A model generated the notes under the pieces. That model had not been told where the DNA came from and ran no database searches. It saw only the letters and a program-made list of their open reading frames with translations. A DNA stretch of 64,000 nt from Lichtheimia corymbifera B2541 (lineage: Eukaryota > Mucoromycota > Mucoromycetes > Mucorales > Lichtheimiaceae), in the NCBI GenBank assembly GCA_000697475.1, contig JNEU01001007.1, positions 1 to 64,000 on the forward strand, in the 5' to 3' direction. Positions 1 through 60,376 of this stretch are shown one piece after another. The position numbers and the translations under genes are program-made. The first letter of the stretch is position 1. Each line of letters begins with the position of its first letter.

Positions 1-262
1 CGCGGGGTCTTCAATCGAACAAAGTTGCGCGGCGGGGTGAAGCGCACCTTGGGTGCAAGTTTCACGATCGTGGTGGCCGATCCTAGATTTCGCAATGTCA
101 CCACCAGCCAAAGTCGAAAAAAAAATTCAAGAGGTCGACCCAAGATCCAGGTTGGCTAGTGGTGACATTGCGAAATCTAGGATCGGCCACCACGATCGTG
201 AAACTTGCACCCAAGGTGCGCTTCACCCCGCCGCGCAACTTTGTTCGATTGAAGACCCCGCG
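1..262. repeat. Near-perfect 108-nt inverted repeat with 46-nt spacer
   Basis: Bases 1-108 are the reverse complement of about 155-262, with a single mismatch seen near the inner end (accacc versus accact). The spacer contains a run of nine A and a gtcgac site. Extruded, it would form a very long hairpin. The match is much closer than that of the module B palindromes beside it, so it is recent or maintained by gene conversion. Confidence 0.9.
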
Positions 263-1169
263 CTTCATTGTAAAGTTTGGAGATACAGGCACCTTTTTGT
301 TTTACATATACTGAAAGCATGACGCTATATGGAGAGTGGTGTTTGTTCATTGTCAAGTAAGTAGACCCTGATAGAACGGAAGATGCGCGAGGGCGTGCTT
401 GTATAACACAGCTCATTTGCATGATACTTCGCAATGAACAAACACCACTTGTTATATAGTATCATGCTTTCAACATATGTAATAACGTAAAAGTGCCTGT
501 GTCTATGATTGACAAGCTTGATGGTGAAACATGATTGGAAAGGTGCGCACAACCACGAGGAGCAACATTGTTCTATGAAAGATCCCATGTTTCATTGAAA
601 AGTTTTGAGATAAATGCACTTTCTCGTTTTTACATATGCTGTAAGCATGATGCTATATGAAAGGTGGCCTTTGTTCATTGTCAGGTAGCTTGGCCCTAAT
701 AGAATGGAAGGTGCGCATGGGCGTGCTTGTATACCACAGCTCATTTGCATGATAATTCACAATGAACAAGCATCACTTATCATATAGCATCATGCTTTTC
801 AGCGTATGTAAAAATGAGAAAGTGCATTTATCTCAAAACTTTTCAATTAAACATGGGATCTTTTATAGAACAATATTGCTCGTCGTGGTGGAGCGCACCT
901 TGTCAATCATGTTTCCCCGATCAGGCTTGCCAATCCTAGATACAGGCACGTTTACGTTTTTACATATGCTGTAAGTGTGACGCTATATGACAAGTGGTGT
1001 TTGTTCATTGTGAAGTATCATGCAAATGAACTGTGTTACACAAGCACGCCCATGCTCATCTTCCGCTCTATCAGGGTCAAGCGACTTCACAATGAACAAA
1101 CACCACTTGTCATATAGCAGCACGCTTACAGCATATGTAAAACATAAAGGTGCCTGTATCTCTAAACTT

Positions 1170-1455
1170 TACAATGAAACGAGGGGTCTTCAATCGAACA
1201 ATATTGCTCGGCTGGGTGGAGCGCACCTTGGGTGCAAGTTTCACGATCTAGCTCGCCAATCCTAGATTTCGCAATGTCACCACCAGCCAAAGTGGATCGT
1301 GGGTCGACCTCGAATTTTTTTTCGACGAGGCTGGTGGTGACATTGGGTGAATCTGAGATCGGCGAGCTGGATCGTGAAAGTTGCACCCAAGGTGCGCTTC
1401 ACCCCGACGAGCAACTTTGTTCGATTGAAGACCCCTCGTTTCATTGTAAAGTTTA
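1170..1455. repeat. Second module A palindrome with inverted spacer
   Basis: Arms of about 110 nt match each other with several substitutions, and match the palindrome at 1-262. The central spacer (cgtgggtcgacctcgaattt...) is the reverse complement of the spacer in the first palindrome. The same loop therefore sits in opposite orientation between equivalent arms. Confidence 0.85.
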
Positions 1456-2330
1456 GAGATACAGCTATCTTTATGTTTTACATATGCTGTAAGCGTGATC
1501 CTATATGATAGGTGGTGTTTGTTCATTGTCAAGTAGGTAGACCCCGATAGAGTCGAAGATGCAGACGGACTTCTTTGTGCAACACAGCTCATTTGCATGA
1601 TACTTCCCAATGAACAAACACCACTCTCCATATAGCATTACGCGTACAGCATATGTAAAAACATAAAGGTGCCTGTTTCTCCAAATTTCCATGATGATGT
1701 GTAGAGGCTTTATGGGAACGATGTTGATCAGCATGATCGAGAGCACCTCCTGACCAAGTTTCGACGTCGCCATGGGCAATATCGGCGCGCACGGCCGCAC
1801 GCCCTATTTATGTTACCATCCATTCATCGTCTCTCCCACATTCAAGGTTTTCACAATGAACTCTGGGGTCTTTATGGGAACGAAATTGCTCGGCGTGGTC
1901 GGAAGGGTGTTGTGTGAAAGTTTCAGGTTCGAGGTGGGCAATCTCGGGGAACAGGAGCGCCGACCTTACTTTTCCCTAAATTTGGGCTGGCCGGCATTCA
2001 AAATGTTCATAATAAACCATGCGATTTTTAAATGAATGGAAGTAATCAGCATGTCCCAGAGAACCTTCTGACCAAGTTTCAAGTGCGAAATGGGGAGTCC
2101 CAAGATACTACATACTAAATGACTTTTTCATAAATCCTGCGCTTTCCCAATTTCCGCCCATCATAGTAAACCCCACATTATGCGCTCCCTTTCGAAATTT
2201 TTAAATGAAGTGTGGGTTCGTTATTAAGACAAAGTTGATCAGCATGTCCTAGAGCATCTTATGTGCAAGTTTCAGGTTTGAGAGAGGCAATCAAGGTCAT
2301 GGAGTAATTTATAGTGTGCACGCATCTGTC

Positions 2331-4542
2331 GCACGGTGCCTCATCTATTTAATTTCCACTTCTTCCACTCTCGGCTTCTTGCCTCTTCCTCCTCCCATTC
2401 TCAACTGTTGCCCCCATTCAAGTACAACTACAACCTGCGAACGATTGCCTTGCTTCCAATCCACCATGTCAATTCTACGAATATCTTGATCCGATTGTCT
2501 TGAGCTGAAGGGCAAGCTCATGGCGTGTGCACCCCACTTCAACACACGCCTTTCTTGAAAGCACACACTGTCTTGCACACTCCAATGCCACAATCAAAGG
2601 AAACAGCATTCATTCCAGCAATTGCTATTAGCGAAGTCTTCATTGTCTCAAGCAGCGTTCACAATCTTGTCATTCTACTACTACAGCACGCTCCTCTGCC
2701 ACAACCATCCCGTAACAGCAGCTGCCATTAGCAAGGTCTCCATTGTCTCAAGTTACCTGCGGCCTCTTCACGTGGACAGCTGATAGCCATTGTATAAAAG
2801 CAGCTTTATTTACGTGTGGCAACTTGCAATGATGCATACGACTTCTAATGGATGGCCCCATATCAGCTATCAAGTATCTCGCAATACAAGCACTCTTCGC
2901 CTTATTGAGCTGCACTGAAAATGACCAAGAAAAAGAGAGACCAACACTCGGATGGAAAAGGAAGCATATCAGCAGCGACCACAGAGGCTCTTTCTTATTG
3001 GACTCGCAACGATTATGGATGAATGGATGGATGCAATCAAGTGCAGTAATGTGGAATCCTGGAATGTTGCTTTGGCTACTTGGCTCGTCGTCAGCAGTAA
3101 CAAACACGTGGATACGGCTGAGGATGATGATGGATTGGATGAATTGGATGGCATGGAAACGAGGGCTTATATCTTTGACAAGAGAGGATTTACCACCATG
3201 GACGATATTACAACATTCAAGTCAATGCATGCAACAGCTACTTTTACAATCATGGATGAAGATGCTTGACGGCAGCAACCAAGAATACAATGACACAACG
3301 ACACCTGCTGATTCTTTGTGATCCATTGGTTGGCATCTGGAAGGAAAGGAAGGATAGAAATTTGAAGGCCGGAAGAGGGGATTAGATTATACCCACATCA
3401 TTGTATCGAGACGCTCTTGTTCCTTCTGTCATATTACATTCATTAAAGCTTCATTGTTCATATGCTGATTAGACGATGGGTAATACCAATAACTGATTGT
3501 ATACATGTTTAAATAGACGCTTGTCTTTTCAATGTTAACAAATCTATAGTAATAGTATCCAACAACCTGCTTGTTACGGAAACTTGATCCATTGTAAGCT
3601 TAAATCATTACTGCTAAGAAAGACGATGAGCTCTGCGGCACAAGTACATACACCATAATGCTTACCTATGACAGCGGCCCTATCAGCATGATCCACCTAG
3701 TATGTATAGCCTTATATAAGAACGAACCCTGGAGGCAAATAATACCATTACCGCTCATAGTCTTGGATGCACTGATCATTTATGCTTGTTTACCACACCA
3801 TCATAGGCAGACCTTACTATTTAGGGATTGTCTGTCATGCATTCTCCACCAATAAGAATCCTTCAAACCTTGCCCCTATTAGTTTTATTACACGAGTCCC
3901 TCTGCATCTTTTGTGCTATCAGGGTGGAAGCCGTTACATCACCACCATGGGAGGGCTTACTATTTGCACCATGTCTCTTGCACCATCCTTGATTCAAACC
4001 GCCATACCAGGGGAGGCTTGATTGCTGATATCAAATGTGACCTGATCATCCGCACTGCTTACACCGAACCCGCATACCAACGCCAAGAGTAGGTTGACAA
4101 CATGGTAAGTCACCTTTATGATAACAGGGATGTGCATTAGGCGTCCAAGTGATTAACTCCCTTGATAGGTCTTTTATCACCTGCCCTAATTTAGCCGATG
4201 TGCATGCATAGACAACATGGCGCCCCATCACTTTATCAGCTCTGAAATCAATTTATCAATTCATCATCCCCAACAGACAGAAATACCCACGCCCACAATT
4301 CACAATAAAAGATGTTGTTGCCGTTCATCATAATCCCACACCTCTCTTTCCTCTGTCTGTCTTCTTTGTGGTTGCTTACAAGGTCAAATCTCCAAGGTTT
4401 GTGTGTATATCACTTCTTGTAACCCTGTGAATAAGCGCTGATCCTTGGGGTCATTGATAGGGTTTCTTTGTTTTCCTGCTCTCATGGTTGTTGTCGTCGT
4501 CCTCATGGTGATTGGATTCTTATAAAAAGGTAAACCTCGATC
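2331..4542. other. No confident gene; possible decayed ORF at 2921-3269 (+)
   Basis: A plus-strand reading starts at ATG 2921 (MTKKKRDQHSDGK...) and stops at TGA after about 33 codons. A second frame overlapping it (2952-3269) continues with plausible protein texture (WMDAIKCSNVESWNVALATW) and an acidic tail. The two could be one frameshifted gene, but I recognise no family. From 3330 to 4540 the sequence is AT-rich with no supported coding signal. Confidence 0.3.
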
Positions 4543-6268
4543 ATGTCGCTTGATGAGTTACTACTAATAACGCCACCTTGTTACTTTCGATATAGCGATC
4601 ACTCCGTGAAGCATCTGCAAAAGTTGGTTTCGGTACCATGGTCTAAGTCTGGTGCTGAAGTTGACATGGTGCAACCTCCCGTTCAATCTTTTCAGTTTTC
4701 GATGGCGACAGAAGGGGAATGCCCCCCAACTTCCATGGTGCTGATTTAACGGCTTCCCTTACTTTGACCATCCTTCCTACAACTGTAAACAACCAACTCT
4801 TCAGTATTGCCTTGCAGACCTACCGCGAGCATAACATTCCATATACATGACCAGAAGCTATAGCTACTTGAATCACTCTTATCTGGTCAAGAGGTACTAG
4901 TTGGCGACGTGTTGAACCAGCGTAGCTTCTTTGAGTTTCTTGGTGAAGATAACATGCTCAATGCGTTCGCAAGAGTCATTGCCCAGTAAGTATCTCTTTT
5001 GTTGTTTGATGAATATGATTTTGACACATATTACCTTACCTTGCAAAGATTTTTATTATTTGCGCTTGCATGGAATCAATGCCATCCTTGAAAATGCTGG
5101 TTTACCTTTATTACGACACACAAGTGATTTCCGTATGGATCGGTTTTTGACGCAAGTGGAACATATCAGAGCACTCAATCCCAAATCTCCATCACAATTG
5201 ATGTTCATGCGATATACTGATTCCTGTACCCAAAGACGCGTGCAAACTCCACCAGTCAACCATGTGCCACGACCAGTATGTATATCATTATTTCAATATC
5301 AAGATTGTTGACGCATGTATCATTGTATAGGCACACTTCAATGCCCTTTTTGTGAAAGAGAATACGTACGACGAAGCTCACTGAATATTCATATAAGAGG
5401 TGTCCACGAGGTAAGTTGAATGTTGTAAAAGTTGCCAGCTTGCTTACACGCTTTTTTACACTTGTATAGCAACAAGAAGGACACCAATGTCCTTTTGACG
5501 GCTGTGGTCGAGCGTTTGTCCATCATGCACAACTATGGCGACACGTGCAACTGCGACATGCTGATCAAGTGTCTTGCATACAGTGCAGATTGTCAGTGAA
5601 CCAAAGGGTTTTGGATGCACTGTCGTGTCCATGAATAATCACGTGTACCCATCATCCACACTCAGCTCGTGTATGGTTATATCCTAGGTTACTATCCAAT
5701 CTTAGTTTCCTGGTTCTTTTCTCTTGAATAAACACCTTATACCGAGTATCACTTACTCTCACCACGTCTCTTACTACAACAATCCATACACGACACCTCA
5801 TGCACATATAAGAAGTCATCACAATCCAGTAAGTATGGATATATATAAGGATATCATTGGTTATTACAAAAGTCTGTACTAAATACCCATCGGCAGAACA
5901 ATCGGTTCTTGTGTGATATTGAAGGGTGCAGACGTCGGTTGAGCTCACAGTCATCATTGGATCGTCACAGAAAAACCTTACATGCAGACTTGTTTCGAGT
6001 AAGTGCTAGATGTCTGGTATTATATGTCAATCATGCTCAAGTCTAGTATAGCCTTGTACGCTTTGTGGAACGTTGCTATGGACGAGAGGAGATTCGATTG
6101 AACAACATGACCAAACAAGACACAATCCCGATGTAAGGTTTTATGCTCTTTGGATGATTGTTTCACTAACACTGCAATTAGAACCCATTTCCTCGTGATG
6201 TATGTCATAAAAGATACCCAAACAGGGATAATCTAGTTAGGCATATGAGGTATGTGCATGGGTGGTAG
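4543..6268 (+). pseudogene. Degenerate C2H2 zinc-finger paralogue of the 7056-9836 gene
   Basis: From about 4740 the translation parallels the minus-strand gene at 7056-9836. Both share the YREHNIP motif, a LLSG-x-EVL...FFEFLG/FYDFLG block, AFARVIAQ at a conserved exon end, a MDRFLxQVE block, and then C2H2 fingers. Five fingers can be read in separate short exons at about 5332-5408, 5468-5580, 5895-5998, 6045-6134 and 6183-6268, ending VHGW-stop. A frame change near the C6 run at 4720-4725 and another just after YREHNIP (near 4850) disrupt the reading. The endonuclease-like N-terminal half was not found. I take it as a 5'-truncated or decayed copy in inverted orientation. The segment 4543-4690 is assigned only weakly. 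Confidence 0.65.
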
Positions 6269-6419
6269 CTCTGACAGCTTGCACCCTTCTCATCGTATCA
6301 TACTCTGGCTACAATAAAGCTTTCATGACGCTACATGTCTGGATGGTGGACCGATCTTTTATACATCATGCAAAATGGAAAAGGTACACATTTATCATTG
6401 AGAAGAAAGGTATTAAAAG

Positions 6420-6915
6420 TTGGTAGTATCATATATACATGCTAAGGTGATGAGCTAGTGTTTGACCTTGGGAGGAATTGATGAGTACTATAGCGAAGCC
6501 TTCTCCCGGATATGGCTTTGGTGTAGTGAATCAACATCCGTTTGCCCTTCTGAAATGCTGTTGTTGTCGTTTACAACCACACCCGGATGGTCGTTTTCAT
6601 CGTCGGATCCAAAGTCATAGTCGTCTTCGTGCCATGGAATCGGTTTGCCTTAACACAAGCAATCACATATCGCATCCAATAAGATGTAAATGAACGGCTG
6701 AAAGCTGCGCTCCACCAATTCTCTCGTAGCGTGTAATCAGGTTGGATTCTTCCAAATGAGATCTTGTCAATGATGAAGATAATGCCGTTGATGATAACGT
6801 AGCCGATAACACCAGCGATCATGCCGTCTAGCACATATCGATATCAGTAAAATGCGCTTCTCGTTCCTCATTCCAACTTACACGCAATACTGTAAGCACA
6901 AAGGTAAACACTAGA
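6420..6915 (-). pseudogene. Displaced duplicate of the purine-permease 3' end
   Basis: This segment is highly similar to 11160-11650. It covers the whole last coding exon (DGMIAGVIGYVIINGIIF...) plus the preceding intron and a few bases of the penultimate exon, near the TYSIA codons. Similarity then stops. Relative to the intact copy, one base is missing near 6645 (ttgccttaac versus ttgcccttag). The reading frame therefore shifts after WMRYVIA and the acidic C-tail is lost. There is no upstream permease sequence beside it, so it cannot encode a transporter. It lies just downstream of the zinc-finger/endonuclease-like gene, which is therefore bracketed by two copies of the permease 3' end. Confidence 0.85.
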
Positions 6916-7055
6916 CTACTCGACTACATGGCAAGTATACGGACTTTGTCGTAAATGACAATAGAACATCTTTTATTTGTAAGAAAAAAGCCACGAGTGA
7001 AATATGATGAGGAAAATAAACGGCTCCACTTTGGACCTTGCTATGAGGAACTTGA

Positions 7056-9836
7056 TCAGCCAATGCTTTGCTTCTGACGTTTTGCATGAACGTTTCGCTT
7101 GTGTCTGGTGATGGTATCCTGCCTAGAATATCTCTTGTAACATATGTCGCAATGATATGGAGCCTTGGTCAAGAATTAGTCATATAGTCCAAAAGAAAGG
7201 AGGGGGATAAAAGCAGAGGATTGTGTACATACCGCTGGGTTATGCCAACGATCAAGATGGTGCTTCATTTCCATCTCGCTACCCCAAACATTGTCTCCAC
7301 ATAAAGAGCAATTCTACATAGAGAGGATGATATTGTGAGAAAGCCCATTCATATGATCAATCAAATCCATCCACTAGCTTACCGTAAACGAATCTTTATG
7401 GAATGCCTTTCGATGACGAGTCAAGGATCCTTGTGTTGTAAACCGCTTCTTGCATGTAACAATGTCACACCCAAATTCATTGTCCTACGAGCATTGTTCG
7501 CATTAAAAACTGCCCCTGGTAAACTCATTCCACCGTAGTACACTCACCGGATTGTGCTCATGCAACATATGGCTTTCTAACGCCGATTCGTGAAATTGTT
7601 GGCCGCATTCAGGGCAGTTCACTTGATCAGTGTGTGCTTCCTTTTCATGTCGCAAACGGCCTCTGTAATTGTTGTATACTTTATCACAACCAGCGTGACG
7701 ACAACGGAATTCCAGTCCCTAATGTTTATGGAAAATGGATTAACATCTGCATTGTTGACCATGAAGATATAAACGCACTTACCATATGCTGATCTCGAAT
7801 GCGATTGTTTAAAGTGTTGGTTCGCACGAAGCATGCTCCACATTGGTCACATCGAATGATTGGCTACCCATGATGACATATCAGTAATCCCTCCAGCCAA
7901 AAATGAGACTATAACCATACCTTACGAGGAGTGTGATCGGCTGGAGCTTGGTCTATTCGGCGTTCGAAACACGAGCGAATGTAACTGAGGAACATTGCTT
8001 GTTCTGAGAATTCGATCCCTTGCCCCATGAATTCGTGTGCTGACGCCCAGAGAGTCTCCACTTGCGCTAAAAAGCGATCCATGTCGAAATCATCCATGTG
8101 CTCAACCATAGGGAGACCAGCAGCCTTGAGGATGTCGTTCAGACCTTGTATGCGTAAAGAATATAAATCCCTACAACCGATAGAATGATGAGTAAAATGG
8201 ACTACTACATAAAAAGATATCCTGTATACTTACTGGGCAATCACCCTCGCAAACGCATTCTCCAAGTTTTCGTATCCCAAGAAATCATAAAAGGTCATTT
8301 GGTTCATGACATCCTTCAACAAGACCTCTTTTCCAGATAACAGCGTGTCAAGTAAGGAGAGCTTCTGATCGAAAGGGATATTGTGCTCGCGATAAATGCT
8401 GATTGCGTTAGTAAGAAGCTTGTTGTTGGTTGGTGTCGAATAAATAGTAAGGTGAATTCGAGCCAATTGAACTCGGTCAAAGCCAATACTACGCAAGGCA
8501 TCTGCCAGGAATTCCAGAAATGGTATGTCACGCCGCGTGAACGTAATGCCTGAATATCGTATTGTCAATCCTTCTCTTCCTCGCAACCAGGTAACATGTC
8601 CGCTGGCCATAAAAAAAACCCAAGAAGAACGCAAGGATTGCGTACTGCCTGTCAGGGTCTGCTTCCGGAAACAAGGACGCCAAAAGATCAAGGTCTGTGT
8701 TCTTGGCTTTGCTGCTAGAGAGGCCGTGAAGTCGCTCGTATAATATTGGATTGCAAGTTCGAAATAAAACATTGCCATTCATTGCGGCTCTCAGTTTGGT
8801 GTTGAACCCAGTGGATACAAATCTACATATCGATGAATTAGCTTGCTATGAATATCCAGTTGTTGAACAAGAGGAAATAAAGATTACCTCAGGTTAGGAG
8901 TCTGGATGCCACAGCGACGTAGAAATGATGCCAGCCATACGAAGCTAGTACTTCGCAACTTGAATCCCGCCGTAATCGAATTCTGATCAGTATATCCTTT
9001 TCCGCGAAAGAAGCCTAGAAATGCAAATTTCATCGTAGCGCCTTTCTCGCCATGTAATACGCCAATAAGTGCTCCTGAGGGGTGATCGGTACGCGAATCA
9101 ATCTCGTCAAATGCAGGTACAGGCTCGATGTCTTCGAACTGTTCAATGTCGCTATCAGATAGCTCGTCTTCGAAATCTACGGAATTCCAAATGTTAAGAT
9201 CGATAGCTTTTAAAAAGACAGCTATATGCTTACCATCTTCCTCGCAACTTGCATCGGACATAGATCCATCGCCATAATCATCGTCTGTATCAAGTAGCAT
9301 TACATCCTCTTGCTCTACATTATGATAAATGAATAGATCAGAAATGGGTTGTGATAAAGAGACATGTCGGGCAATGCATACCAGAAATACACTCAGTATC
9401 CGATAGAGTTGGTTCTTCTTCAGCACTCGTAGTGGATTCGATATCACCTGTAGAGGAGCAAAAGTAGTAGTAAGCACAGTAGGTTAGTAGATGAAAAGCC
9501 ATCGTTTCCAAGAGCAAGTTACATACTCAGGTCACTTTCTTCATAGTTTGATGTGCTTGGTGAGGCCAATCCGTGACGACGTTTCATGTGGGATGATACT
9601 ACAGTATATGCAGGAAAAAGAATCGGCATATGAGTTCTCTCTCTTTTATAAGCGCCAGATCGCTCAAGTACCATAGAAACAATGAGCACTGTAGGTGTGT
9701 GATTATCTTGTAGCGCTTCATTCTTTGATTGGAATACTGAACAATGGGCATCAAATGCCGATAAAGCCATGCGTCTTTGACTGCTCCTAGAAGTAGTATG
9801 AAGCCTTTTAGAGAGGCAATACCCATGATGGCGCAC
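7056..9836 (-). pseudogene. LAGLIDADG-like endonuclease fused to C2H2 zinc fingers (frameshifted)
   Basis: Read on the minus strand with short introns, the product has an N-terminal finger remnant (SSHMKRRHG near 9580), an acidic linker, and two motifs typical of LAGLIDADG helices: FAFLGFFRGKGYT (near 9020) and ILAFFLGFFYG...GHVT (near 8600). Each is followed by a beta-rich segment and a closing helix (FLRRCGI; FLADALRSIGF), as in the intein-derived VDE/HO endonucleases. A central domain (YREHNIP...AFARVIAQ) follows, then about six C2H2 fingers: 7860-7780, 7715-7560 (two), 7490-7385, 7310-7230 and 7170-7056. The catalytic acid positions read Lys (RGK) and Ser/Gln instead of Asp. A frame change is needed at the 8-T run near 8607. 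A likely mutated splice donor (gata) lies near 9715. It could be a dead homing gene, a domesticated DNA-binding protein, or an assembly error. The zinc fingers are secure; the endonuclease fold is inference. Confidence 0.6.
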
Positions 9837-11158
9837 AAAGAAGACATACCTTGTGTGGGTTGTGAATAGTATGTTGTCGCTAGAGAACTAGGCAAATAAA
9901 CGCAGAAACCAGGCACCACAATGGGAGATCATGCAAAGGTATTTACTGGATAAAAGACGAATGCTGGATTTGAATGATAATTTCAAAGAGCATTGTCGTA
10001 CAAGACCTAGTGGACATCCTTGCATTCAATGCTGTGTAACGTATACAATGAACAACAATGATCCAAGCCTTCAAAGAGATAAACATCATATGTAGTTGAT
10101 GTATCGAATGTTCCAATTGGACGACTGGTTGCGGTTGAAGGATGACAAAGAGCCACTTTATGACACCATAAAATTTCCCGTGCTCTTGGTAATGAAACTT
10201 TGATCTTCGTCTTGTATATAACTGAAGGCATCACAAGACCTCCAATGCTGGACATTGTACAAGTCTCTCCTTTTTGCGGCACAGTCGGGACAAAGATGTA
10301 TGAAGGATCGCATGGTGCTGAAGTTGCCCTGAGAAAGCTGATGTTGATGCTGCAAAAAAAAAAAGGAAACGGCGATGTGTGCGTTGGTGCGACGACGAAT
10401 TGCATGCGTTGTTTTGATCTGCCACTCATCATTAGAATAAAACATGTCTTCCATGTAAATTGGTTTATAAACCTACCTCTGCTCTTGTGGATGAAAATCT
10501 TATTAATTGGTACGATTAAGATGATGGCCTGCCATGTTGGTTGAATAGTGTCGCTGATGACTGGGATGCCACAGTGTCGAATGGTTCGATCACAAATAGC
10601 TATATACTAGGTACCGTAAGGATTAGAATACTGTAAACCGTGAAGACCAATACCTGTGACGCTGTGCTTACAATAGTCTCCATATGTGATTACGGTATCG
10701 CGTCGTTCATTACGATACTGCAGGGATAAGGTAGGTGCGTAACTTGTTGGAGTACGTCTTCTCTAGATTTACTACTGCGTTTGTAGTCAAGACCTTCTGG
10801 TCAAACGTAACGCTCTTGGGACGCGTAATTGGGCGATTGAATGCTGCTGGATGTTGCAATTGCACTCGGAACGAGCCACGTCAATCGACAATGAGAAGAA
10901 GGAGGTCAAAGTGTAAGAGAACGACTGAAAGGGAAAGTGCGGGAACCATAGTAATTGATAGCTCAACCCAATGTAAACCTTCCCCGCATTCTCCTCCAAG
11001 ACACGAATACCGTAGATACCATACAAATCTTGATAAATAAAACCGCACCCCAATTGTCCAATGCAATCCAGCTCTTAAATCAAGTGATTACACAGTCTTT
11101 TATGATGAAAGAAAAACCATTTACAATGATGTTACTGGAAAACGAGGTATTATAATTG
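9837..11158 (-). other. Mobile-element relics, including a possible GIY-YIG remnant
   Basis: No intact gene is seen. On the minus strand at about 11050-10960 the reading YGIYGIRVLEENAGKVYIG matches the paired GIY and YIG signature of GIY-YIG nucleases in spacing and context. Farther on, one frame gives a plausible exon (KSVTFDQKVLTTNAVVNLEK) that ends at a stop. Another frame (YRNERRDTVITYGDYCKHSVT) splices through a 54-nt intron (gtattgg...tatatag) to AICDRTIRHCGIPVISDT. Cysteine/histidine motifs (CPDCAAKRRD...) occur on the minus strand near 10290. A degenerate finger (HPCIQCCVTY...) is on the plus strand near 10010-10095. These may be upstream exons of the neighbouring zinc-finger gene or an older, separate element. 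Confidence 0.35.
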
Positions 11159-11159
11159 C

Positions 11160-11650
11160 TGCGAGTATCGTATATAAATGCTGAGATGATAGATTTCAGA
11201 ATGATGTAGTAGTTTGTGATTGAGCTTGGGAGGCACTAATATATTGATGCTTTCTCGCGGATATGACTTTGATGTAGTGAATCAACATCCGTTTGCCCTT
11301 CTGAAATGCTGTTGTTGTCGTTTACAACCACATCCGGATGGTCGTTTTCGTCATCGGATCCAAAGTCATAATCGTCTTCGTGCCATGGAATTGGTTTGCC
11401 CTTAGCACGTGCAATCACATATCGCATCCAGTAAGGCGTAAACGAACGGCTGAAAGCTGCGGACCACCAGTTTTCACGTAGCGTGTAATCAGGCTGAATT
11501 CTTCCGAATGAGATCTTGTCAATGATGAAGATAATGCCGTTGATGATAACGTAGCCGATAACGCCAGCGATCATACCGTCTAATACATATCGATATCAGT
11601 ATCATGCGTTTTCTCTTTCCTCACTTTAACTTACACGCAATTGAGTAAGT
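11160..11650. repeat. Permease 3' segment, partner copy of 6420-6915
   Basis: This is the in-place copy of the duplicated segment, containing the final exon of the intact permease. Similarity to the displaced copy starts in the 3' flank near 11160 and ends in the penultimate exon near 11650. The duplication therefore has a clean boundary inside coding sequence. Confidence 0.85.
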
Positions 11651-13469
11651 AAAAGGCATGACTGTAAGGGTTAAGAAGGCCGGTATAGCATCTACCAAAA
11701 AATGACGTCAGTTCAAGCGTGGATCAAGGTGTTATACTAAAGTACCTCCAGGATAATCCCAATTGATGTTTCGCACACTAGTAGCCATCATAGAGCCTAC
11801 GACGATAAGGGCGGGACCAGTAGCCCATGGTGGGAAGCTTGCAAAGATTGGGGAGAAGAAAATAGAGATAAAGAAGCCGAAAGCGATAGTGATGGCAGTG
11901 ATACCGGTACGACCTATCATACAAGATATGAGCATCGAATGTGATAAGAGCACGTGTTCCTATGATATACAAACCTCCTTCAGAGATACCAGTGCCTGAC
12001 TCGACGAATGCTGTGCATGGTGAGCTACCAAAGCAAGAACCAACAATAACAGCAATGGCATCGGCAATGAAAGCATATGTGGAATGTTCAAAGTCGCCGG
12101 TCTTATCTGTGAATCCACCATAGCGAGCCATCGAATACATGGTACCAGTAGTGTCAAGAATATCCACATACTGAATAAAAATGAGTACCTTTGGTGTACG
12201 AATATATATATTGATGAATGCTTACCAAGAAGGTGATCAAAGCAATCCAGATTTCACGAGATCCCAAATCAAAGTGGAATTTGGCTAGGACACTATATAA
12301 AGAGTCAATACCTTAATCAAACTATTTTATCAATCACACTTACTGGTCCAATGGATGCACCGTTACGACCTTTTTGAAATAATCGAACATGGCGTTACCG
12401 GTTTCGGTGTATGGGAAATAGGTGACATAGCTGACACGGGGCCAAGATGTGATAGCGATAAAGACGATACCGATCAAGATGGCGCCACGTACACGATACA
12501 TGGTCAAGACTACCATGATAATAAGACCAAGGATACCCATCCAAGTAGTAGGACTCTCCATAGTATGGCCTGTACAAATGCCATCGGCATCCTTGTATTG
12601 ATCCGGACATGCAGCTATAATACAACGATCGATGAGTTATGCTTGACAAGTCAAATGCTGAGCAATGCATACCAAGAGCAACAAGCGTGGATTTGTCGAG
12701 ACCAACAATACCGATACCAGCCGAGGATTGCAAGCCAATGAAGCAAAGATAGAGACCGATACCGCATCCCATGGCAACCTTGATACTCATAGGAATGACA
12801 CGTGCGAGCCACTGGCGGATACCAAAAATGGAAAGAATCAAAAAGATACATCCTTCAATCAACACAGCGGCGACAGCTGTTTGATAAGAGACTTTTCCTG
12901 ACCCATGATAGCCAACAACGTTGTATGTGAAATAAGCGTTAAGACCCATACTATAATAAATTATCATCAGTAATCGATTCGTCTTCATTTTGAATATTTG
13001 TGCTTACCCAGGGGCCAAACCAAGAGGCAAGTTGGCAAGTACACCGATCAAAACAGAAGCAATCATGGACATGATAGCAGTGGCCATAATCATATCGAGC
13101 TTCACTTGGAAAACACACTGCATGTATTCTTCATTGTTGTCACAAACAGGATCGTCTTCGGTTCTTGGACATTCACAGGTGCCACCACTTTCACTAATGA
13201 TTGATGCGTTGACTGAAATGATATATGCCTTTTAATAACAAAAGTCAGTCAATGACATGGCCATAGCGTTGTCGAAAATGGATGGTGATAGAGGTCGAGT
13301 TATTATTTACCATGGCAAAAAATGTCGTAACACCAGCACGCAACTCTGTCAAGAATCGGGTGCCCTTGCGTTCTCGATATGCTCCCGATCCCTCGAGTTG
13401 AAAGTATCGACCCACTCGAGAGCCTGCGACGGCATTGTTGATCTTATTGGCGTATTCAGCCCAGGTCAT
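11236..13469 (-). CDS. AzgA-type purine nucleobase permease (NCS2/xanthine-uracil-like family)
   Basis: The gene has about nine exons. The start (MTWAEYANKINNAVAGSRVG) and N-terminal RYF...G motif are typical of AzgA-like hypoxanthine/adenine/guanine-proton symporters of the plasma membrane. Later exons give the conserved GTRFLTELRAGVTTFFAMV segment, LPLGLAPGMGLNAYFTY, GIGLYLCFIGLQ, the DTTGT motif in YVDILDTTGTMYSMA, the GSSPCTAFVESGTGISEGGRTG substrate-binding loop, and the FTYSIADG segment. Up to a dozen hydrophobic segments and an acidic cytosolic tail follow. All key motifs are present and the frame is intact with splicing, so it should be functional. Purine scavenging is the expected role. 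Its last exon and adjacent intron are duplicated at 6420-6915. Confidence 0.9.
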
Positions 13470-20799: not shown

Positions 20800-21279
20800 T
20801 AATACGGCAAGCAAATGACTGTCGAAAAATTTAATAGCAAATGGGATCAATTTGTAGATAGTTTATTCCAAGTGTGATTGTCATCATGAAAATAAAAGTA
20901 GTTACGTGCTATTACAAAGAGGAGGCTGTCGTTACAAAATCATTTGGCATGATCGCAGGTTGACGAGAATGATTGCTGATCCTTAGATTGCAAGTAAACC
21001 TTTCACCGTGCCATTCTTTGAACCTCATTTCATCCTCTCCTTTTCCATCACATGATATCGACCACTCATTCATTACACGACATAAGATAAAAACCGACAT
21101 AGTGATTGATGTTGATAAGCTTTTTTCATTTTTCGGCTCTAACGACTATGATACAATGAAGTTGGGGGTTGGGGGGTGATGGATTGTTGCTGTTGTTGCT
21201 GTTGTTGTCTTTCGAGAGATACGAGAGGTGTTTTGTGTGCGTGTGTGTGCGTGTGTGTGAGGGTGATATGAAATTCTCT
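20800..21279. other. Convergent 3' flank with simple repeats
   Basis: No gene is seen. Simple-sequence DNA lies at about 21185-21262: repeated gttgctgttgttg followed by a (gtgtgtgc)n tract, just downstream of the Mrp10 stop codon. These tracts account for the low-complexity ORFs in the area. Confidence 0.6.
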
Positions 21280-21568
21280 CTACAATTGCTTGCTGAGTCG
21301 TGCCAAGTGGTAGTTGATGGTATTCTTTGCCTTTGTTTTCTTGACCTATCAATACGCGATATACTAGTTAATACGAGCACAACAGCTATTGAAACCTTGA
21401 ACTTACAGGCTTGGACATGCACTCCTGAAGAGATTGAGCAGCAGCTGTACATTTCTTGGCATCGATACCGTCGGTAGCCCAGCATTCGAACAATGCACCC
21501 ATCTCTACGACGCAAGGGCTTGATTCCAAAAGCTTCCGTGGCCTGACCTTGAGTTGCTTCAACTTCAT
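21280..21568 (-). CDS. MRP10: Mitochondrial small-subunit ribosomal protein Mrp10 (mS37, CHCHD1-like)
   Basis: Two exons (21407-21568 and 21280-21345) encode 75 residues starting MKLKQLKVRPRKLLESSPC. The twin CX9C signature is exact: CVVEMGALFEC and CTAAAQSLQEC. Such proteins are imported and oxidised by the Mia40 pathway and adopt a CHCH helical hairpin. The second exon gives KKTKAKNTINYHLARLSKQL, the conserved basic tail of fungal Mrp10 that contacts mitoribosomal RNA. Length is close to the yeast protein (95 residues). The intron is GT-AG and in phase 0. Confidence 0.88.
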
Positions 21569-22874
21569 TGTGTATTAAGCAAGTGCTGAGAAAACAAAAG
21601 ATCAGTGGCCCTGTCAAGTTGGGCTTGACATCCGACCCAACCAAGCCACGCATTCATTCAGCTACTACATTCACCCGACTACACCCTACAATGATACCAT
21701 CATCAACAATAAAAACTGATACACTATATATTTAGCGTAAGGTGCCATAGAGTCATTTACTATGCCATGTTACTATAGCAAAATTTTAGTTCCTTGCTAT
21801 GTACCAGTAGTGGGTTGCCTTTCTTCCTTGTATCGTATGTAATTGAGTTTGAGCTGCATATGCTAGTTGCTTGCAAATGCACCATCATGGCCTTAAGATT
21901 GGCCGTATCATAATATAATCAATAATGCACTTTTCTTCTTCTCCAAATTGCCATCCTTTACAAACTCGTTATTGGGGAACTCGTAATGCATATCCCCACT
22001 CGAAACCATCAACTTCATAGATGATACCTTTGTTCTGAGTTTCGGTGTTAGATAACGAGGAAGCCTCTTCCCATCTCGAAATTCGAGCGAGGTTAAGGAC
22101 ACCTTGCCACCAAGTCCACCTTTGAAGAGGCATCATAGGAGGTAGCTACATCGAAAAATGTATATGGATTATGAGGATGTGGCTCATTTAATGATATGAT
22201 TAATTGTTACCTTATAACAAGAATGGACAAACATCACAGTGACAATCACCACGACAATGAAATCAGGATAACAATGAGCTAATAATACACAGGGTGGCAA
22301 GAGATGAGATACATGCAAAAAGCTTGGATATTTGATGTCATTGTGAAGCAATGAAAAGGTCCATGTGATGATGATAGCGGAAAGAGATGTTACTACTAAA
22401 TAAATGTAGATTGGTGCCCCATAGTCCTATATTTTCTTATACTATGAGTATTGCATTCACCCATTGTCATGGCCTCTAAAGTACAGGAGCTCCCTCCAAA
22501 TGGTATACTAAGAATCAAGCACGTGGATCAACTAAATGTCAATGGCACTTGCTTGCATGATTGTCCCAAGATCTATTGTTATGCGAGATTCAAGCTACAA
22601 AGCCTATTATGGTACAGAAAGAAGAATGTGATCTCAAGGCACACATGTATGATTATGCATTTATTGCCATGGAAACGTTCATAGGCGAGTAAGGGGAAAT
22701 TGATGATAAATAAAAAATGTGGTACAAGTCGAGCTGAGATCAGTGGTAGTTGTGGTGGTGGTGGGATCACAAAAGTGTACATGTCTTTAACTTTTTTCAA
22801 GGACCGAGTTGTAGCAGCTATATCTTTTGTTTTCTTCTTCTCTTTCTCGCTTTTTCACCCCATTTGATTCCCAC
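21569..22874. other. Mostly non-coding; weak minus-strand ORF at 21908-22130
   Basis: On the minus strand, a stretch reading GGLGGKVSLTSLEFRDGK and onward to a stop at 21908 has ordinary protein composition. It has no convincing start or upstream exon and no family I recognise; it may be a terminal exon of a small or decayed gene. The rest is AT-rich. Just before 22875 lies a pyrimidine tract typical of the promoters in this window. Confidence 0.35.
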
Positions 22875-49580: not shown

Positions 49581-49628
49581 ATATGGGCCACCACAGCCTT
49601 TACATTTTATTCATCATCTTGTTGAAAT

Positions 49629-50354
49629 ATGGCACGAGGCACTTTAGTTTTCATTTCTACTGCGATTGCATTGTTCCTGACAGCAGCCGTAACCAACGCA
49701 GCACCAGCTGTGGATTCTCGTCTTGAAAACACTGATACCAAGTTTACCAAAGCTTCCCATGATATCTTTAATGCCCACAAATTGGCACGACGCGAAGATC
49801 GTAGCGACCAACAACATCGTGATGTAAATGCTGATATCGTTGAGGATGAACGTGACCATCAGGAGACTGACGAAGAAGAACCTGAGGAATACGGACCTAA
49901 AGAACAACACAAAAAGCGCGAAGACCGTAGCGATCAACATCATCGTGATAAAGACGCTGATATTGACGAAAAAGAACCCGAGGAATACGAGCCTAAAGAA
50001 CACCACAAAAAGCGTGAGGACCGTAGTGATCAACAACATCGAGATGTAAACGCTGATATCGTTGAAGATGAACGTAATCATCAAGAGGTTGACGAAGAAG
50101 AACCCGAGGAATATGGACCTAAAGAACATCACAAAAAGCGTGAAGATCGCAGTGATCAACAACACCGTGATGTAAACGCTGATGTTGACGAAAAAGAACC
50201 TGAGGAATACGAGCCTAAAGAACATCACAAAAAGCGTGAAGACCGTAGTGATCAGCACGATCGTGATCGACACAAGAAAACTGAAAAAGAAGAGCACGAA
50301 GAGGAGGAGGAAGAAGAAGAGGAAGAGGAAGAGGAAGAGGAAAACGAAGCATAA
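49629..50354 (+). CDS. Secreted Kex2-site repeat protein (putative multi-peptide precursor)
   Basis: A 241-residue single-exon protein. Residues 1-24 (MARGTLVFISTAIALFLTAAVTNA) are a signal peptide. After a short pro-segment ending LARR come five repeats, each beginning EDRSDQ(Q/H)(H/D) and four of them ending in HKKR, a dibasic Kex2-type site. Repeat units alternate between a long form (with ADIVEDERDHQE...EEYGPKE) and a short form (with ADIDEKEPEEYEPKE). A final truncated unit runs into a poly-Glu tail. The layout of signal peptide, KR-bounded near-identical repeats and absence of other domains is that of fungal KEP (Kex2-processed repeat) proteins and pheromone-like precursors. The predicted products would be highly acidic peptides of about 30-45 residues. 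Receptor and function are unknown. An alternative is a hydrophilic wall or metal-binding protein. Confidence 0.78.
   Translation: MARGTLVFISTAIALFLTAAVTNAAPAVDSRLENTDTKFTKASHDIFNAHKLARREDRSDQQHRDVNADIVEDERDHQETDEEEPEEYGPKEQHKKREDRSDQHHRDKDADIDEKEPEEYEPKEHHKKREDRSDQQHRDVNADIVEDERNHQEVDEEEPEEYGPKEHHKKREDRSDQQHRDVNADVDEKEPEEYEPKEHHKKREDRSDQHDRDRHKKTEKEEHEEEEEEEEEEEEEEENEA
49785..50285 (+). repeat. Five tandem coding repeats
   Basis: Units begin at about 49793, 49919, 50015, 50141 and 50237 (gaagaccgtagtgatcaa-type start). Long units are 126 nt and short units 96 nt, in the order long, short, long, short, partial. The alternation suggests duplication of a two-unit block. Confidence 0.85.
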
Positions 50355-58800: not shown

Positions 58801-60376
58801 GAGCAGAAAAGGGACGAGCTTTTAGAAAAGGAAGGAAGACCGGGAACTGGGATGCATCATTATACGCGGAGCTGAAGAAAGCAAGAGATAATGTCAATAA
58901 CCATTATCTGAAGATGGATTCACTGAAGGAGAAGAGTAGTCGCCTATCCCAGAAGCTATTTGAATTGCAAAGGGGAGTGTCTTTGAAGGACGTAAAACGT
59001 GAAACAAAGCAAGACGAGTCAAGACATGTATGTACCATTAAATTTATTGTATTGTTCATATCAATGCCTGACATTGGATATATAGAAGGCATCAAATATT
59101 ATTCAAGAGCATATACAAGGGGAGCTGGGGTTGGGTATCACCGGCACGGACCCTGGCATTGTCACCACTGCCACTATCGCAATAGTATCTGCTGACGAGC
59201 ACATCAAACATATTCAAGATTTCGCTTCGCTTAAGACTTCGGATGATGAAGAGGTGCAATCATCCTCAGCACAACATGAGGCACAATCATTGTCATCAGC
59301 AAGTGTGGAACCACCATTGTCATCACAGCATGAGGCACAATCATCGTCACTACAGCATATGGAGCCATCATCGTCTTCGCAACATGTTGTCGAGCTATTA
59401 ACTACCTCATTTACACCATCACATTCATCTACACAACCACAGCAACCATCCCACCAATCCGATGAGCCTTCAACAACCAAGCCAACCCAACAGAAATCGC
59501 CATCCCAGCCAAAGAAGACAACTACAATCAACCTCACAGCCAAACTTGTATCAGACCGTACATTTACCACCATCCATCGGCGACAGCGTGAATGGAGAGA
59601 GAAGCATAAAAAGGATACGACATCCACCAAGCGAGCGAAGCAGGCCAGGACACGTGAAATTCGACGCAATCGGTTTTATTGCAAATTTGGATCCAATGTT
59701 CGACACAAAGCTGCTGCAACTGGTGAGAAGAAGGCTTGGAGCGTGATGAATTTCTATGGATCATGGACAGGAAGAAACAGCAGGGTCAAAGGGCATTCGC
59801 GTGTAGGAAGTCAACAGAAGATCCAAGAAAGAATGAATTGTCCTGAGAATGATCACGTGCTTGTGGTGGACGAGTACAATACTACAAAGACTTGTGGGAG
59901 TTGTTTACACCCGGTGGAATTGCAATGGCAGCGACAAGAAGATGGCACCTATAGGCGTTGTAAAGGGGCGGGTCAACTGCTCAAATCCTCGTTGTCCACG
60001 TCGACTTGCCAGTAATCAAACTACCAAGGGTCGAGATGCATCTGGAGCTGAGAATATTGCCCTTTCTGGATTATCAACGTTGATGTCTACAGATTCCAAG
60101 CCCTTACCAGCATTTCAGCGTGGGGGTCATACCACAGCGTATCATCTCGCTGCACCATATCAATCCAAAACCATCATCGGGGCCAGTTCTGGCCACTAAT
60201 GGTGACCACACTTTGTATCATACTTTGTATGTGGATAAAATTATGGGTAAGCCATTCTGTCTAGCTCTACGATTTAGTGACTAACATGGATGGTGTAAAT
60301 AGCTCAAGCCACAATTCTGTGGAGATATAGTAACGAAAACATCCATGGCTGGTTCCTTTTTAATTACACACCATAG
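55862..60376 (+). pseudogene. Fanzor (eukaryotic TnpB-like RNA-guided endonuclease), interrupted
   Basis: Exons: 55862-56389, 56459-57830, 57893-59028, 59086-60246, 60303-60376. All introns are GT-AG with consistent phases. The C-terminal RuvC domain shows GTDPG (Asp codon 59149-59151), then a long Ser/Gln-rich insertion, basic helices, GSWTGRNSRVKG, and VVDEYNTTKTCGSC. Its Glu (59872-59874) fits the relocated catalytic Glu described for Fanzors. The zinc-ribbon cysteines (59893, 59902, 59959 and NCSNPRC) and RDASGAENIA with the third Asp (60035-60037) follow. The N-terminal part has an acidic/Ser-rich linker and helical wedge-like regions. Lesions: in-frame TGA at 56516, frame change near 58600-58640, and frame changes at G runs 59965-59968 and 60122-60126. 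Intact splicing and conserved active site suggest recent decay or assembly errors. No captured cargo is seen. Confidence 0.85.

Follow-up and report, generated by a model that had tools for sequence, protein, structure and literature searches.

Why should an endonuclease-like gene lie between a full-length purine permease gene and a second copy of the 3′ end of that same gene? The question is raised by a stretch of 64,000 nucleotides (nt) from contig JNEU01001007.1 of Lichtheimia corymbifera B2541, analysed at its full length and referred to below as the window. The arrangement resembles that of WHO elements, which are known from Torulaspora and Lachancea yeasts (Coughlan et al. 2020, PMC7282813; statements on WHO elements below follow parts of that paper). 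A sequence-only reading of the window had proposed a WHO-like locus, and its layout was confirmed overall, with four corrections. The WHO-like layout is real; the decisive evidence for WHO-like homing lies outside the window, in intact relatives that show the same layout at unrelated genes. We consider it likely that a Lichtheimia family of WHO-type homing elements exists and that this locus is one of its worn-out members.

The permease locus and its endonuclease-like gene

Read along the minus strand from 13469 down to about 4540, the window contained the permease gene, about 1.6 kb of intergenic sequence, the endonuclease-like gene and a displaced permease 3′ end, beyond which a decayed endonuclease relic was found on the plus strand (Table 1). 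The permease gene had been described as complete from 13469 to 11236, which was confirmed from the sequence and by the match of its spliced first part to the Pfam model Xan_ur_permease (53.4 bits, cut-off 27). A duplicate of the permease 3′ end only had also been claimed, and alignment of the two copies, 6458-6904 and 11216-11656, bore this out at 87% identity over 449 aligned positions (expectation value (E) 2e-154). The main ungapped pieces were 212 nt at 90% and 164 nt at 92%, and the homology had a sharp start at the border of the last intron. Positions 6400-6920 were searched in the whole 35-Mb genome and matched at just three places, namely themselves, 11216-11656 and a paralogous permease on contig C140 (71%), so the duplicate is not a dispersed repeat. 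At E <= 1e-20, the window contained no other pair of repeats lying 2-9 kb apart on the same strand.

The endonuclease-like gene was upheld as a gene. Its start, earlier placed at 9836, was moved to the ATG at 9587, which corresponds to the start of the public Lichtheimia ornata protein P0002, and its end at 7056 was kept. The product begins with an acidic region, continues with a pair of LAGLIDADG-type repeats and a linker, and ends with the part encoded by the finger exons. One frame break at about 8620-8550 had been overlooked; it is absent from P0002 and from P0001 (L. corymbifera FSU:9682), and may be peculiar to this strain or may be a sequencing error close to a homopolymer run. An intron spanning the break was rejected as an explanation, since both P0001 and P0002 are read through at this place. 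Compared either side of the break, the window product and P0001 were equal at 597 of 598 residues. P0001 and P0002 are both intact and were 83% identical over their alignment, with the finger Cys and His residues mostly retained; P0002 has six canonical C2H2 fingers, against five in the window gene. A protein search with the permease-linked gene returned two relatives at E <= 0.001 among 7723 candidates, one from L. corymbifera and one from L. ornata. A search with a protein alignment, scored on the 7993 candidates sharing most words, returned P0001 and P0002 and two further proteins, P0003 and P0004 (27 and 39% query cover), which were dropped as finger-driven matches.

P0001 is annotated as one protein that continues from the endonuclease into the displaced permease end, and strain FSU:9682 therefore has the same layout, with the displaced end in frame. 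The single annotated protein made of an endonuclease gene and a displaced permease tail should serve as a warning to annotators. The first 94 residues of P0001 are probably mispredicted too (P0002 begins at the inner Met). The P0001 tail differed from the window full-length permease at four positions, at three of which it carried the residue of the window displaced copy.

A second zinc-finger copy, noticed in the earlier reading, does exist, but it lies on the plus strand, is decayed and includes the end of a LAGLIDADG region. Its identity to P0002 by tblastn was 30-67%, piece by piece.

Intact relatives and divergence at unrelated host genes

The genome was searched with the window gene and then with its relatives, and family matches were recorded on ten contigs: C326 (gene and relic), C174 (three genes and a C-terminal fragment), C202, C309 (one endonuclease gene plus a fragment), C330, C356, C398, C122, C216 and C416 (weak). 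Complete spliced models without an internal stop were obtained for C309 (935 amino acids, nine C2H2-like fingers by pattern), C202 (932 amino acids, eight fingers) and gene A of C174 (C174A; 1021 amino acids, seven fingers).

The layout was found at three unrelated host genes, the permease gene of the window being one. On a single strand of C202, a complete aldo-keto reductase (AKR) gene is followed by an endonuclease gene (101322-97478) and a second reductase 3′ end (96733-97282, displaced, against 102058-102655). On C174, a P5C dehydrogenase gene (P5CDH; TIGR01236) ends at about 16737; next come gene A in opposite orientation (20885-17020), a displaced dehydrogenase 3′ end with 240 open codons (21265-21984) and gene B. 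Upstream are gene C and a third copy of the P5CDH 3′ end, which is short and inverted (10063-10302), and the cluster holds in total three endonuclease genes, one C-terminal fragment and three P5CDH 3′ ends. The intact C309 gene adjoins a fragment with a GXGXG domain and broken frames, which we take to be glutamate synthase; this region was present at three other places at 79-80%. On C122, a glutamate-synthase match (1330-1866) has a C309-like endonuclease match (5104-5550) about 3.2 kb downstream of it and on its strand, and the two possibly form a further host-gene pair.

The LAGLIDADG-like identity proposed for the window gene was supported through these relatives, the window gene's own exons giving no Pfam match to LAGLIDADG. 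The C202 nuclease region matched PF14528 (LAGLIDADG_3) above cut-off (25.6 bits against 22.5), the same model was matched at E <= 10 by four of six family members, and a six-member family profile matched five PDB sequences at E <= 10, all of them I-DmoI (E 0.02-0.03). The other family nuclease regions were 30-35% identical to that of C202. In P0002, the order of elements at residues 224-313 fits an alpha-beta-beta-alpha-beta-beta-alpha fold, at low model confidence (mean predicted local distance difference test score (pLDDT) 34). Against other proteins, the C202 nuclease region gave no match at E <= 0.01 among 3163 candidates, a search that unannotated genes would escape; four filamin matches (E 0.57-0.95), obtained with phmmer against PDB, were taken as chance.

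The catalytic residues of the first and second motifs are D/D in C202, C174A and C309, D/N in C174B and K/S in both P0001 and P0002; in the window gene the first-motif residue is K. Since neither motif keeps its catalytic Asp in P0001 and P0002, members of the permease-linked subfamily have probably lost the ability to cut, in L. corymbifera as in L. ornata. The window element, in which both catalytic Asp positions are changed and the frame is broken once, is probably dead as a nuclease; with most fingers kept and both catalytic Asp residues lost from the permease-linked protein, the homing process in the window is probably over.

The C-terminus of the C202 protein matched two BRCT models above their cut-offs (28.6 against 27 and 25.2 against 21.3), and C174A matched the same two below cut-off (best E 3.6e-5). 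The BRCT-like C-terminal regions were located at 1979-2707 of L034 (C202) and 1121-1801 of L033 (C174). We know of no earlier description of an architecture that combines LAGLIDADG, C2H2 fingers and a C-terminal BRCT region, and the presence of BRCT in a homing nuclease would point to a direct connection with the repair machinery. Intein domains gave no Pfam match at E <= 0.1 in the whole of P0002 or in residues 1-428 of C202, and none at E <= 10 in the six nuclease regions, the scan stopping short of the whole of C309 and the C174 N-termini.

The two 3′ ends at each duplicated locus were compared codon by codon, the expectation for a fragment functionless since birth being that differences are even across codon positions. 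Differences at positions 1/2/3 were 4/3/23 for the permease, 16/5/61 for AKR and 22/18/57 for P5CDH, with third-position excesses of p 1e-6, 3e-14 and 3e-7, respectively. In the same order, the ratio of non-synonymous to synonymous divergence (dN/dS) was 0.066, 0.059 and 0.212, and the synonymous divergence (dS) was 0.41, 1.01 and 0.42. Most of the divergence arose with both ends translated, because the differences are mainly silent at all three loci; such a pattern fits replacement of the 3′ end by that of a divergent allele, and the evidence as a whole fits 3′-end replacement by homing better than ordinary duplication. With the paralog on C70 as outgroup, 20 derived residues of P5CDH fell in the full-length 3′ end and 3 in the displaced one (9 unresolved; binomial p 5e-4). 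Polarised in this way, the displaced P5CDH end is the more conserved one, contrary to the pattern of a decaying pseudogene. In P5CDH and AKR alike, the displaced end is open throughout, and that of AKR retains frame and splice sites. Loss of frame in the displaced copy, regarded before as expected, thus stood for the window and failed as a general rule, P0001 being in frame as well.

The middle exon of AKR hardly differed between the full-length and displaced ends (dS 0.18), its neighbours being near saturation (dS 2.8 and 2.5), and the P5CDH ends were 92-100% identical at their 3′ border; sequence thus seems to be exchanged between the two ends. The full-length AKR gene of C202 was also compared with its paralog on C414, and identity was 89-98% over about 400 nt including an intron (C202, about 102640-103030). 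High identity stops near C202:102640, at about the start of the displaced homology, and beyond this point was mostly 70-84%. The step may be the border of a conversion tract or of a chimera, and its position is the one predicted for a cut. The tract possibly arose when a break was repaired ectopically.

Proposed mechanism and competing explanations

For the Lichtheimia loci, the best-supported mechanism is the model proposed for WHO elements, in which a sensitive host allele is cut and repaired from the element-bearing allele, its 3′ end being replaced and the old one displaced (PMC7282813). The element would consist of the endonuclease gene and a host-gene 3′ end resistant to its own enzyme. 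If a sensitive allele is present in the same cell, the enzyme would cut this host gene near the start of the duplicated 3′ part, and repair would copy the element; the host gene would receive the element's 3′ end and remain whole, and the endonuclease gene would land directly behind it, with the old 3′ end pushed beyond. Successive rounds would produce clusters in which older copies decay.

Several observations weigh against homing as the explanation. No empty allele was seen in the one genome whose DNA was covered, and cutting, specificity, homing and resistance are features that we infer. The window-encoded protein is without both catalytic Asp residues, and the fold model of P0002, predicted together with P0001, has the low confidence given above. 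Low dN/dS alone is equally compatible with a complete tandem duplicate that was truncated later. Derived residues numbered 0 in the full-length and 3 in the displaced permease end (2 unresolved), and 4 and 7, respectively, in AKR (3 unresolved). Family-model scores for the two P5CDH ends (349.1 and 348.4 bits) failed to separate them, so that for P5CDH the polarity depends on C70 as outgroup. A second edge is present upstream of the AKR identity step, and the step may belong to an ordinary gene-conversion tract. The C309 gene does not lie between a full-length gene and a fragment, and the relics on C330, C356 and C398 had no recognisable displaced host fragment.

Of the other explanations, the one that survives best is possible, if doubtful: the product of the permease-linked gene, derived from a homing enzyme, would no longer be a nuclease and would have been retained for binding DNA, perhaps to regulate the permease (compare WhiA). 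Such co-option would account for both Asp positions having changed alike in L. corymbifera and L. ornata, and for the intactness and retained fingers of P0001 and P0002; the window copy, however, has a frame break and a first finger without a His, and slow functionless decay could give the same picture.

Ordinary tandem duplication, followed by loss of the 5′ part from one of the copies and with a C2H2 gene between them by chance, is unlikely. The same nuclease family sits between copies at three unrelated genes, with the duplicate always a 3′ end only; the family is small, as the ten contigs with matches attest; and the P5CDH polarity is reversed (20 against 3). On the other hand, low dN/dS is expected here too if both copies were complete for a time, the displaced permease and AKR copies do hold more derived residues than the full-length genes, and parts of the genome paper report L. 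corymbifera to be rich in gene expansions (PMC4133162).

It is rather improbable that the elements mainly transpose, as yeast WHO10 does, and that host 3′ ends were duplicated by imprecise repair at no fixed target. The number of host genes and the three relics without a recognised host fragment are in keeping with transposition, but integration was repeated at one C174 gene and at the permease, and a C309-like match occurs also behind a second glutamate-synthase copy (C122), which together suggest fixed targets for each subfamily.

A broader proposal, to which we give very little credence, is that the displaced, still readable 3′ ends are donor cassettes rewriting host ends and that the element is of independent Mucoromycota origin, having arisen from a non-intein LAGLIDADG enzyme with C2H2 fingers and BRCT and spread to several metabolic genes. 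Least probable of all is that displaced ends are kept as donor cassettes from which the end of a cut full-length gene is rewritten, as in mating-type switching: the open P5CDH end, the intact AKR frame and splice sites and the near-identity patches at both genes would agree with it, but the displaced end in the window is out of frame and such patches are also expected from homing or chance conversion.

Table 1. Features of the permease locus and adjoining sequence, in window coordinates.
Feature	Position	Strand	Basis or remark
Host gene, purine/xanthine-uracil-type permease, complete	11236-13469	-	Sequence and Pfam
Duplicated 3′ stretch of the full-length permease gene	11216-11656	-	87% to 6458-6904
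Displaced copy of permease 3′ end, one frame break	6458-6904	-	Nucleotide alignment
Endonuclease-like gene, 11 exons	7056-9587	-	Spliced in two pieces; agrees with P0001 and P0002
Exons 1-5	9587-9527, 9447-9382, 9314-9234, 9176-8888, 8822-8234	-	Frame break in 8822-8234
Exons 6-11	8170-7921, 7863-7783, 7718-7548, 7484-7383, 7313-7233, 7163-7056	-	
First LAGLIDADG motif, FLGFFRGKG	8995-9021	-	Lys at catalytic Asp position
Second LAGLIDADG motif region, with frame break	8550-8640	-	FLGFFMASG (Ser) in P0001 and P0002
Zinc-finger exons	7056-7863	-	Five canonical C2H2 fingers and a first finger without one His
Decayed second endonuclease gene: end of LAGLIDADG region, linker, finger	4752-6262	+	tblastn
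Dispersed repeat within relic	5620-5801	+	Many copies in the same genome
Dispersed repeats adjoining relic, outside the element	1-4760		Genome-wide copies

The repeats to the left of the relic were tried as parts of the element and dropped, because they are dispersed genome-wide. They are rich in inverted arms, and two repeat families meet near 3925; each repeat search of this region scored 40 candidates out of hundreds. Elsewhere in the window, the plus-strand open reading frame at 49626-50354 encodes a hydrophobic N-terminus and repeated charged units (REDRSDQ-like) and had no Pfam match. A Fanzor/TnpB reading of the plus-strand frame at 59086-60015, prompted by a zinc-ribbon-like Cys-X-X-Cys pattern, found no Pfam support and was rejected.

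Comparison with WHO elements and other LAGLIDADG proteins

No nuclear homing elements in Mucoromycota were found in the literature titles and abstract openings searched, a scope outside which a 2024 WHO review falls, and the words homing and LAGLIDADG were absent from the main text of the L. corymbifera genome paper in a term search (PMC4133162). The likeness to WHO elements is in the organisation of the locus. Both have a LAGLIDADG-type endonuclease with C-terminal zinc fingers; a gene placed behind an uninterrupted, complete host gene (here in the window, on C202 and on C174); a displaced host 3′ fragment beyond the endonuclease gene (here at three host genes); clusters with older, decayed copies (here on C174 and, as gene and relic, in the window); and very low identity among members, some of which lie opposite to the host-gene orientation (PMC7282813).

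The WHO-like interpretation of the window thus stood as regards layout, which recurs at two other host genes with divergence mainly at silent sites, and was not supported as regards kinship with HO and WHO. In the regions scanned, the Lichtheimia family has no intein (Hint) domain; its fingers are C2H2, whereas those of WHO are Cys-X-X-Cys (GATA/Ash1-like); two relatives carry C-terminal BRCT regions; and the hosts are permease, P5CDH and AKR genes in another phylum, the main WHO host being FBA1. HO of Saccharomyces is likewise a free-standing LAGLIDADG nuclease with zinc fingers, but it is an intein-zinc finger fusion acting at MAT (PMC7282813), and kinship of the Lichtheimia family with it was not detected. 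I-DmoI, the only type of PDB entry matched by the six-member profile, shares the two LAGLIDADG repeats per chain and differs in having neither fingers nor BRCT. It is intron-encoded, and WhiA-type regulators are bacterial proteins with other DNA-binding parts. The latter, which are named in a part of PMC7282813, resemble the window protein as proposed here in being LAGLIDADG proteins without cutting.

The Lichtheimia family appears to work like WHO and yet to be a separate kind, because no intein region was found in the parts scanned, and because it is without the Cys-X-X-Cys fingers, has other hosts and has BRCT added. Its elements are probably of independent origin from WHO and HO. If this is true, the same genomic logic, carried by another protein architecture in another phylum, is a lifestyle that evolved more than once; ordinary metabolic genes would serve as its hosts, and 3′-end replacement, clusters and chimeric host genes would be testable by comparison.

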